The translations under genes were made by a program, and so were the position numbers. This document shows positions 34,655-37,910 of a stretch of DNA of 37,910 nt, piece by piece. The notes below the pieces were generated by a model, which did not search any database, was not told the DNA's origin, and saw only the letters and a list, made by a program, of their open reading frames with translations. The stretch comes from Candidatus Staskawiczbacteria bacterium. GTDB lineage: Bacteria; Patescibacteriota; Minisyncoccia; Minisyncoccales; Staskawiczbacteraceae. Every line of letters begins with the position of its first letter. Position 1 is the first letter of the stretch. The stretch lies in assembly GCA_016196125.1 (NCBI GenBank), contig JACPYG010000007.1, positions 1-37,910 of the forward strand, given 5' to 3'.

Positions 34655-34776
34655 AAATCGGAAATAAGTATATTTTTCAATTCAGGCTCGGGTCGCGAGA
34701 GCTTCCCGCTGTGCGGGAGCTCCCGACATAGGCCGTGGGTTTGGCGGGAGTTGAAAAATATACTTATTTCCGATTT
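34655..34776. repeat. Long inverted repeat with 26-nt perfect arms around a GC-rich hairpin core
   Basis: AAATCGGAAATAAGTATATTTTTCAA (34655-34680) / TTGAAAAATATACTTATTTCCGATTT (34751-34776); core contains GAGCT-t-CCCGC-tgt-GCGGG-AGCTC. Confidence 0.9.
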
Positions 34777-34783
34777 TCTACAT

Positions 34784-34963: not shown

Positions 34964-34992
34964 TAAAAAAGCGAGACTCCGAAGAATCTCGC
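34964..34992 (-). terminator. UUCG-tetraloop intrinsic terminator of the minus-strand ALDH/NTase cassette
   Basis: Minus strand GCGAGATTC-TTCG-GAGTCTCGC (9-bp stem, one G-T wobble) then TTTTTT. Confidence 0.85.
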
Positions 34993-35010: not shown

Positions 35011-35697
35011 TCACACCTTGTCGGGAAAATCCATAACCCCAAAACGAAAGTAGGGGTTGTAAAGGTGATCTGCCTTAAACACGTGCTTCCCGATAAACTC
35101 TCTTGCGGAGACTAATCGGAATACTATGTCTGAATAGGCAGGCCTTTCCTCGAAGGGAATCATATTTAGCGCATTCATCAGTCCTCTTCCTTTAAGATTG
35201 CTGATAAAGCGGGAAACTTCCGGTTCCTTCCGGGGTATCTCGTAGATTTCTGGACGAAGCTGGGTTAAGGGATCGCCGGCTAGAACAGTCCTTTCCAGGT
35301 CATCCAAGAAAGAGCGTAGTAACCTATGGCCATGTACCGCGAAGAGCTGCTTCCATTCCTGTGGAACGTTTTCCGGATACAAGGCTCCCAGCCAAGGCTG
35401 TGATAGCGAATGGCACCAAATCATGGCATCGTAGGCTGTAGAACTGTTCATCTTGGCCGACAGTTCTAGCGTCGGCAATGATGCCGTAGCGGCCTGAAGC
35501 TCGCCGATGGTAACTACCTCAGTAGGATACTTGAAGTCCGGAATCCTTCCAAACATCTCATGAATAAAGGATAACCACTCGAGGTATTTTTCAACCTGCT
35601 CGGTATTCCTATTTTTCACACACACCAAAGTATCCACATCGGCGTACCGTTTGTCCCTTCTGGTAGCGAAGCTACCGAAGATGTAGGCGAAGAACAA
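35011..35697 (-). CDS. Nucleotidyltransferase-fold protein (GSF-x10-DVD)
   Basis: FFAYIFGSFATRRDKRYADVDTLVCV matches the NTase GS...DxD signature; ORF-track start is a TTG, no in-frame ATG; frame is open upstream to the TAG at 35716-35718. Confidence 0.65.
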   Translation of the reverse strand: MFFAYIFGSFATRRDKRYADVDTLVCVKNRNTEQVEKYLEWLSFIHEMFGRIPDFKYPTEVVTIGELQAATASLPTLELSAKMNSSTAYDAMIWCHSLSQPWLGALYPENVPQEWKQLFAVHGHRLLRSFLDDLERTVLAGDPLTQLRPEIYEIPRKEPEVSRFISNLKGRGLMNALNMIPFEERPAYSDIVFRLVSAREFIGKHVFKADHLYNPYFRFGVMDFPDKV

Positions 35698-35715
35698 TTC
35701 ATCTTCGAAGATCCG

Positions 35716-36924
35716 CTATACATTTTCCTGGAATTGGGCGGCAACGATCTGTCGCTCAAAGTCATCCTTTATTCCCGGAAAGCCGGCAAAAATCTTTTTG
35801 CCTTCAGTTCCTATAAAATTACGGATCTCCCTAGGGACCAACAGCGGTTTCGAGATTTGAACGCCATGGTAGGAGACTTGCGAAGCACCCGGGCTGTACC
35901 CTCCGAACTCATATAACCCCTTCTCGACATCGTGTATCGTGCAATTCTTCAGGATGATACTCCCTTTTACACTGGCAACATAGTCGCTTTCCCCGAACAG
36001 CGAGATGTACATTTCGCTGTTTTGGTATTGCGAGCTGGGGTCGTCGAAGTAGAGCGCTAACTCACGATCATGCTCATACTCAGTTACCAGGAAAATGGGA
36101 GCATACATTTCTCTGAAGTTTTGCAGCTGTTTCAAGGTAGTCCTAACTACACATGGATACACAATGTTGTGCAAAAGATCGACTTGGCCGCCGTACTTGA
36201 TGTATGCCTCTTGCCTCCGCATATTGGAAATCATTTCCACAACATGCTGGAGGGAGGAAATTTCAAAAAGGGGGCCAACCGCCACATCATCATCAGCATA
36301 CGAAGCGCTGCACTTCACCTTGGACAGCTCAGCCAGAAGCTTTTCCATGTAAATTTCCACGACCAAACTATGGACGAGAATGTTGTCTGGTCCGGCACAA
36401 TCCTGTCCATTGTTGAAGAGCTTTACATAGAGCGTCTTCTGCACTGCCAAATCCATGTCGGCACTGGGAGTGATGACCAAAGGGTTGTGTCCGACACCAT
36501 TGTAAAGCAGAAGGGTATCGGTACCACAAGCTTTTTGGATACGGGTGAAATTTTCCCGTCTACCGGTGAAAATCACAACAGAGGCTTTTTTGCAATGTTC
36601 GCTGACAAATCGTTCCCGTGATCCTTCAAAAAGATGGATGTTTGGGTAGCGCTCTTTCAGCGAGAGTACGTTAGCTAATTCGTCAAACACCTCACACATC
36701 CTTTCGGGTGTTCTTATTGTGAGCGATACCGATTGATATGCCGGTATTGCCCCAAAAATCACGAACGAGTAGAGGGGCAAGTTCAAGGGCAGAAAAGACG
36801 CTATGCTTTGAGCCAGCGGCTCTTCTAGAAAATATCGCTGGATCTCAGAAATGCCTCTCAAGGCCTCTACTGATCTTTTGATTTCATCATCAACCACCTG
36901 CTTGCTCTCGTACTTTCTCAGCAC
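35716..36924 (-). CDS. Divergent aldehyde-dehydrogenase-superfamily protein
   Basis: VVIFTGRRENFTRIQKACGTDTLLLYNGVGHNPLVITPSADMDLAVQKTLYVKLFNNGQDCAGPDNILVHSLV (GQ-C motif) and REMYAPIFLVTEYEHDRELALYFDD; GTG start. Confidence 0.75.
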   Translation of the reverse strand: MLRKYESKQVVDDEIKRSVEALRGISEIQRYFLEEPLAQSIASFLPLNLPLYSFVIFGAIPAYQSVSLTIRTPERMCEVFDELANVLSLKERYPNIHLFEGSRERFVSEHCKKASVVIFTGRRENFTRIQKACGTDTLLLYNGVGHNPLVITPSADMDLAVQKTLYVKLFNNGQDCAGPDNILVHSLVVEIYMEKLLAELSKVKCSASYADDDVAVGPLFEISSLQHVVEMISNMRRQEAYIKYGGQVDLLHNIVYPCVVRTTLKQLQNFREMYAPIFLVTEYEHDRELALYFDDPSSQYQNSEMYISLFGESDYVASVKGSIILKNCTIHDVEKGLYEFGGYSPGASQVSYHGVQISKPLLVPREIRNFIGTEGKKIFAGFPGIKDDFERQIVAAQFQENV

Positions 36925-36992
36925 CCTGTGGATGTCGGAAGCACTAAATCGCCGAACTCCTTCGCATGCGTCAGAAAATTCTGATACATCAT
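36918..36992 (-). other. 24-codon ORF with strong Shine-Dalgarno, overlapping the ALDH-like start
   Basis: Minus strand AAGGAG (37004-36999), 6 nt, ATGATG; encodes MMYQNFLTHAKEFGDLVLPTSTGC, its TGA overlapping GTG 36924 (GTGCTGA). Confidence 0.5.
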
Positions 36993-37057
36993 GGTTTTCT
37001 CCTTGTTTCAGTGATTGTCAAAGGACGCCTTCTTAGCCTTTACTAAGAATGGATTGT

Positions 37058-37085
37058 ATTATATAGTAAATATAAATAATTTCAA
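37058..37085 (-). promoter_or_regulatory. Promoter of the ALDH/NTase cassette
   Basis: Minus strand TTGAAA (37085-37080), 16-nt spacer, TATAAT (37063-37058). Confidence 0.6.
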
Positions 37086-37100
37086 TATAAAACCTGCAAA

Positions 37101-37776
37101 ATGATGAATCTGACATTCCTGGGAAGTGGCTGCTGGCAAGGCATTCCAGCCCCTTTTCAGGATGATAAAATCAGCAAAGAAGTGAAATGGGGCTCGAAAG
37201 ATTTCCGATTTAGAACTTCTCTTCTCATAACCACTCAGAAAGGAAGCAAAATTCTTGTCGAGGCAACTCCAGATATAAGATTACAGTCATGGAAATTCAA
37301 CCTCAGTAAACCTGATGCTATTTTGGTTTCCCATTGGCACTGGGACCATCTTTTTGGATTATTAGACATAGCTTGGTTTTCAGAAAAGAACAAGGTAACG
37401 GTCTATGGAAACAGCACTACGAAAAAATGGTACGACTCCAGAATAGCCCATGTGCCTGTAAATTTCATCACATTTGAATCCTACCGCTCCTTTGAAATTG
37501 ATAACCTCAAAATAACTCCTCTAAAGGTTAACCATGTCGATGAAACGGACGGATTTCTGTTTGAAGACAAAGATAGCGGAAAAAAGTTTGCTTATCTTTC
37601 TGACTTATACGAAATTCCCTTGGAGACTGAAGGTTTAATCAAAGGAACAGAGGCCGTAATAACAGATGCGACATATTTGGAGTCGGATATATCGGATGAT
37701 TCCACTCATCTTCAAAAGAATCAATTCAATCAATTCTTGAAAAAAATTATATCCAAGGAAATTATTTTGACTGGCA
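37101..37776 (+). pseudogene. MBL-fold metallo-hydrolase truncated by IS insertion
   Basis: MNLTFLGSGCWQGIPAPF, ILVSHWHWDHLFGLLDI, TDATYLESDISDDSTHLQ; reading frame passes into IS-end sequence after EIILT, so the ORF tail to 37850 is not native. Confidence 0.75.
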
Positions 37777-37910
37777 TGACCCCCGTTTTTAAGACACTTT
37801 CTCTAAATGTTTTTGGCATCGTTTGGCGAATAATACCGGCGGCATTCTGAAGGCTGAGTGTATTCTGGTATGATTGTATTTCCAGATAAGATGATGTATT
37901 TCGTAAACCA
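37772..37910 (-). mobile_element. Insertion sequence end with integrase-core transposase C-terminus (IS3-like), continuing past window
   Basis: Minus strand 37908-37789 translates VYEIHHLIWKYNHTRIHSAFRMPPVLFAKRCQKHLEKVS*; followed by GTGTCTTAAAAACGGGGGTCA as a putative IS end. Confidence 0.75.

Follow-up and report, generated by a model that had tools for sequence, protein, structure and literature searches.

This locus raises the question of why an ALDH-like and a nucleotidyltransferase (NTase) domain are encoded in a single reading frame that is split by one TAG codon, and whether the pair represents one protein, two proteins, or the remains of a gene.

Layout of the locus

The window, i.e., the whole stretch of 37,910 nucleotides that was analyzed (G000:C13:1-37910), comes from a draft assembly of 647 kb in 17 contigs. 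On its minus strand, a GTG-started ALDH-like ORF of 402 aa (36924-35716) precedes a TTG-started NTase ORF of 228 aa (35697-35011). A preliminary description had placed the two in one frame, separated only by a TAG at 35718-35716, and the coordinates, the strand, and the TTG were all verified here. It had also noted that the NTase has no ATG of its own; indeed, there is none between the TAG and the GSF motif, where the TTG at 35697 is the sole ATG, GTG, or TTG start. The features of the locus are as follows, with L040 and L036 denoting the loci of the two closest relatives.

37058..37085, minus strand: promoter-like TTGAAA-16-TATAAT upstream of the broken gene (consensus scan, 11/12 matches)
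36999..37004, minus strand: AAGGAG, the ribosome-binding site; L040 conserves it and L036 has a similar one (DNA alignment)
36918..36992, minus strand: original start ATG at 36992, with 24 codons (MMYQNFLTHAKEFGDLVLPTSTGC) and then TGA owing to the frame change
36930..36950, minus strand: lesion 1, loss of a net 10 nt as compared with L040 and L036 (pairwise DNA alignments; exact position ambiguous)
35716..36945, minus strand: ALDH-like domain (Pfam Aldedh, 2e-23, and homology starting upstream of GTG 36924)
36397..36399, minus strand: codon of the ALDH catalytic Cys in the GQDC motif (alignment of 56 members)
35716..35718, minus strand: lesion 2, the in-frame TAG, a Gln codon in the two closest relatives (codon alignment)
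35014..35763, minus strand: NTase half, including an N-terminal helix that spans the TAG (NTP_transf_2/Polbeta and AF2 model)
35632..35676, minus strand: NTase active-site motif GS...DxD (GSFATRRDKRYADVD), invariant in three homologues
35520-35518, minus strand: third acidic residue (E) of the NTase
34971..34992, minus strand: intrinsic-terminator-like hairpin just 3' of the NTase stop, predicted from sequence
37101..37850, plus strand: MBL-fold gene with its C terminus swapped for unrelated sequence
37769..37910, plus strand: 142-bp repeat; a second copy, 99% identical, is at G000:C10:62066-62207

Since the promoter-like and terminator-like sites, which are consensus matches only, bracket the ALDH/NTase pair, it looks like one transcription unit.

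Intact and interrupted homologues

The preliminary description had proposed a bifunctional ALDH-NTase fusion cut by one amber codon and had predicted single-chain fusions of about 630 aa. We scanned a set with one genome for each GTDB species, using an alignment of five homologues as the query, and found such a protein in L040, a MAG contig on which a single ORF of 665 aa carries both Pfam domains, is 66% identical over query residues 1 to 631 of the read-through protein, and has Gln at the amber position. A divergent fusion in a Legionella MAG (L042; a single 711-aa frame, about 32% identical) has the same domain order, and together with L040 it bears out the proposal. Because full-length single-chain homologues exist, the shared frame of the two halves is not due to chance.

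Genome G165 holds a further copy (L036, the contig that is also designated L041), with 66% and 62% identity in the two halves; here, too, the residue at the amber position is Gln. An IS3-like element interrupts this copy, and the flanks on either side of the element are in frame with each other. The transposase gene (L036:8862-9764) lies within the ALDH-NTase linker, with an apparent 3-bp GAA duplication, and the insertion is about a dozen codons before the position equivalent to the window TAG. The roughly 1.2 kb at this place in G165 might have been read as a middle gene since deleted from the window, a candidate that was ruled out once the segment was recognized as the inserted element. In the tree, the window sequence, L040, and L041 form one clade with full support. 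No matches came from genomes or viruses scanned with the window protein as the only query or from plasmids searched with the NTase alone, phage records yielded generic ALDHs only, and the surroundings of G165 held no additional fusion. The fusion is real and ancestral: the ancestral gene encoded a single chain of about 660 aa, in which an ALDH-fold domain preceded an adenylyltransferase-like NTase.

Two lesions in one gene

Codon alignment sets the window TAG opposite Gln codons in both L040 and L036. The second lesion lies near the 5' end, where pairwise DNA alignments with both close relatives indicate a net 10-nt deletion near 36948 while the ATG at 36992 and its ribosome-binding site are retained; lacking these 10 nt, the window has its native ATG out of frame. 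At the matching start, the ALDH frame of the relatives gives MWFTNAIDHAKSF... and MLYTNVVDHAQSF..., and residues 20 to 660 of the L040 protein align to 36945-35032, so that homology in this frame extends 5' of GTG 36924. Thus, the 402-aa GTG ORF does not begin at the true 5' end of the gene, and the true start is the ATG at 36992 with its ribosome-binding site.

The simplest explanation of the break is that the gene carries a nonsense mutation as well as a frameshift, so that the TAG is a lesion rather than recoding. Among the alternatives offered in the preliminary description, nonsense mutation is the best supported, and two features expected of a pseudogene are present: there are intact single-chain homologues (L040 and L042) and more than one disabling lesion (the TAG and the net 10-nt deletion). 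A broken gene is not unusual in such genomes, since pseudogenes are reported to amount to 4.9% and 9.4% of coding genes in two Parcubacteria MAGs (PMC11188291). The amber break seen in the preliminary description thus stands; the 5' deletion, the decayed neighboring gene, and the LysRS link described below were absent from it.

An assembly or sequencing error, with the organism's own gene being an intact fusion, is improbable. Both active sites are intact and the draft assembly consists of 17 contigs, of which this is one, and for the TAG alone such an error would be possible; the two lesions, however, are independent and of different kinds, one of them being the separate net 10-nt deletion, and the adjoining gene is truncated by a repeat. 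It is also quite improbable that the locus encodes two working proteins, an ALDH from GTG 36924 and, coupled to it across the stop, an NTase with its own restart at TTG 35697, which was the tightly coupled initiation considered earlier. In favor of this, the two frames are long and have intact catalytic residues, and in Saccharibacteria and Cytophagales the NTase homologue is encoded by a gene of its own that overlaps, but neither GTG 36924 nor TTG 35697 has a clear Shine-Dalgarno sequence, and the ALDH would be deprived of its native start. Moreover, the read-through protein was modeled with AlphaFold (mean pLDDT 80), and the model has one helix at residues 389 to 409, across amber residue 403, followed by a strand at 410 to 416. 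Because this helix spans the amber residue and leads into the first NTase strand, the TTG product would lack most of it, whereas separate NTase genes retain the segment. Functional readthrough or suppression of the TAG, for which the frame open on either side speaks, is almost certainly not the explanation, because TAG is used as a normal stop here (it ends five other ORFs of at least 120 aa in the window), the stop is not conserved as programmed readthrough would have it but replaced by Gln codons in relatives, and the upstream frameshift would be left unexplained.

Acquisition and decay

Very probably, then, the locus is an acquired, now broken, and decaying gene of a former ALDH-NTase fusion with two lesions, and a working fusion protein from this gene is probably absent from the source genome. 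The small-genome bacterium acquired the fusion gene horizontally. The gene has a GC content of 47.5% versus 36.1% for the window, and its distribution is patchy: the gene is absent from all 57 related genomes searched within the family or order, and the fusion is absent from another 285 genomes sampled across the class, where three genomes gave generic ALDH matches only (about 30% identity). Between relatives, both halves are constrained (pN of about 0.15 to 0.24 and pS of about 0.74 to 0.91, the latter near saturation), and this strong constraint indicates that the fusion was a working protein until recently. In a raw comparison, the ratio of first- and second-position to third-position change in the NTase half was higher on the window branch than on other branches. 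Both halves keep long frames and catalytic motifs, suggesting that decay is recent and that residual activity of either half is possible.

The MBL-fold gene next to the window gene is the same neighbor as in L036 and L040. Its last ~30 residues in the window are replaced by the 142-bp repeat at the contig end, which truncates the gene and is probably the end of a mobile element. The dnaJ-tRNA-Lys order beside the locus is conserved in nearly all relatives checked, so that the fusion module sits immediately past a conserved tRNA gene. This order being ancestral, tRNA-Lys was rejected as a part of the system. A search of the window for another copy of the 3' end of the tRNA gave none. A long inverted repeat (AATCGGAAATAAGTATATTTTTCAA ... 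TTGAAAAATATACTTATTTCCGATT) lies between dnaJ and tRNA-Lys at 34655-34780.

The ALDH and NTase halves

The ALDH half matches Pfam Aldedh at 2e-23 (83.2 bits versus a gathering score of 23), mainly over profile positions 204 to 385, and the best 50 matches in a fold search with the full model were all ALDHs. None of the NCBIfam equivalogs reaches its own cutoff for this half, and relatives have weak matches to LuxC-type acyl reductases (PF05893). In the subfamily alignment, the Cys is kept in 56 of 56 members, while the Glu of the ELGG motif is replaced in all 56, typically by NGxGHNP or FGxGPNP; the window protein has NGVGHNP in its place. Members in Nocardia and Tsukamurella are distant, and the tree was flagged for long branches. 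In Streptomyces, the members have TPP enzymes and adenylate-forming enzymes as neighbors, in what look like biosynthetic clusters; a 218-aa gene following the ALDH there was considered as a possible NTase and rejected.

The NTase half matches NTP_transf_2 at 1.6e-5 (25.6 bits versus a cutoff of 21) and has the G-S/G...D-x-D motif and third acidic residue by which NTP_transf_2/Polbeta enzymes are recognized. In an eight-row alignment spanning four phyla, the G, both D's, and the E are invariant; the S is not, although the window has it. The NTase profile is nearest to kanamycin NTase and MNT-type chains, with weak E values of about 1e-4 to 1e-2, and the last ~85 residues are of low confidence in the model. 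The two Saccharibacteria and a Cytophagales MAG have an NTase of the window type next to the ALDH gene, and one Nocardia has such an NTase near it; no HEPN partner was seen in the ALDH-linked cases examined. The complete acidic motif and the closeness in sequence and fold to MNT and aminoglycoside adenylyltransferases make adenylylation of a small molecule our best guess for what this half would do.

Linkage of the ALDH subfamily with class I LysRS

At 36 of 52 loci, the ALDH is accompanied by a class I LysRS-like sequence, whether fused, adjacent, or as the C-terminal domain alone. Seventeen loci have LysRS first in one ORF with the ALDH (e.g., Xenorhabdus L047 and Pseudomonas L054; PF01921, 6e-75 and 2e-82), and two Saccharibacteria loci, L067 and L072, have the ALDH first (PF01921, about 1e-100). 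LysRS is a neighboring ORF at 10 loci; at L043, L044, L046, and L065, the frames identify it as separate and adjacent rather than fused. The remaining seven (L069, L077, L079, L080, L082, L084, and L085; Parcubacterial and related, nearly all from Patescibacteria groups) carry only the C-terminal LysRS domain on the ALDH (phmmer, 2e-6 to 2e-10; profile comparison, E of 4e-19). The LysRS parts retain HIGH- and KMSKS-type motifs. The two domain orders fall in different tree clades, which suggests independent fusions. L066, which lies on a cut contig, gave no LysRS match.

LysRS-ALDH proteins or gene pairs occur at L043-L060, L062-L065, L068, L070, and L071 (e.g., L047:6252-9134 and L054:6213-9128), and the two are joined in Photorhabdus, Xenorhabdus, Pseudomonas, and Pseudonocardiaceae. 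An MFS transporter gene lies directly 3' of LysRS-ALDH in the two loci examined, Xenorhabdus L047 and Pseudomonas L054. A Saccharibacteria cluster (L072:3781-12501 and L037) holds an ALDH-LysRS fusion, an NTase, a class II aaRS-like protein, a PPDK/PEP-utilizer protein, a small kinase-like protein, and an amidohydrolase and looks like a biosynthetic cluster. At L075:4252-5835, an NTase-methyltransferase fusion, the NTase of which differs from the window type, stands directly before ALDH and LysRS genes and 3' of class I aaRS-like genes.

No LysRS part was found in the window gene, L040, or L041, nor was a clear class I LysRS found elsewhere in the source genome (G000). The link to lysine that LysRS provides may therefore not apply to the fusions of the window lineage, which have no LysRS domain.

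Proposed function of the intact protein

The Cys is kept and the hydrolytic Glu of oxidizing ALDHs is lost, from which we infer a reductive use of an activated acyl group. In the ALDH half, the Cys would take the acyl group from an activated carboxylate (an acyl-adenylate or an aminoacyl-tRNA), and the group would be reduced with NAD(P)H to an aldehyde; the NTase half may adenylylate this product or a related small molecule. This combination of reduction and adenylylation is a tentative assignment for the intact fusion, held with less than even confidence.

In the wider subfamily, the activating enzyme would typically be class I lysyl-tRNA synthetase, the repeated partner of the ALDH being an enzyme that makes an acyl-adenylate or an aminoacyl-tRNA. 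The LysRS C-terminal domain alone on the ALDH suggests a tRNA ester as the substrate, if this domain has retained the tRNA binding that it has in LysRS. The LysRS-linked members could thus be aminoacyl-tRNA or aminoacyl-adenylate reductases, although we regard this as somewhat doubtful. A new kind of reductase system, in which LysRS would activate lysine, the ALDH would make an amino aldehyde, and the NTase or an exporter would handle the product, with the window lineage as an NTase-fused variant, is likewise a speculative and rather unlikely scheme as it stands; the NTase-fused branch, being without LysRS, may use another activated acid.

As a single locus, the window gene is an ordinary decaying acquired gene of modest interest, and the family that it exposed is more interesting. 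It was through the broken gene that we came to an intact family of ALDH-NTase fusions and to an ALDH subfamily that, in several phyla and with either domain first, is repeatedly joined to class I LysRS or to its C-terminal domain alone. The family exposed in this way is apparently undescribed, as far as the open-access papers searched show, and nothing relevant was found in these papers on LysRS-ALDH fusions, aminoacyl-tRNA reductase, or lysinal enzymes. If lysyl-tRNA or lysyl-adenylate were indeed reduced, this would be a route to amino aldehydes linked to aminoacyl activation outside haem synthesis, and LysRS-ALDH with the MFS transporter is a ready cassette in culturable Xenorhabdus and Pseudomonas.

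Comparison with known systems

With the ALDH superfamily (PF00171, Aldedh), the window protein shares the ALDH fold, by model and Foldseek, and the Cys in a GQDC motif, but it lacks the general-base Glu of ELGG and is fused to an NTase. The ANT(4')/AAD(9) enzymes and MNT antitoxins share the GS...DxD motif and third acidic residue, match the NTase in profile comparison at E values of 2e-4 to 1e-2, and are its best, though weak, fold matches; in contrast to them, the window-type NTase has a motif of its own, H...GR.PD..P.E, and is fused to or beside an ALDH. Class I LysRS (PF01921) is fused to ALDH relatives in either order or represented by only its C-terminal domain, whereas the window gene and its two closest relatives are without it. 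Pfam identified no HemA or carrier-protein domain in the window protein and the relatives examined. Glutamyl-tRNA reductase (HemA) and carboxylic acid reductases make aldehydes by reducing activated amino acids or acids; the window protein, with its ALDH fold, resembles them only by analogy in how it might work.
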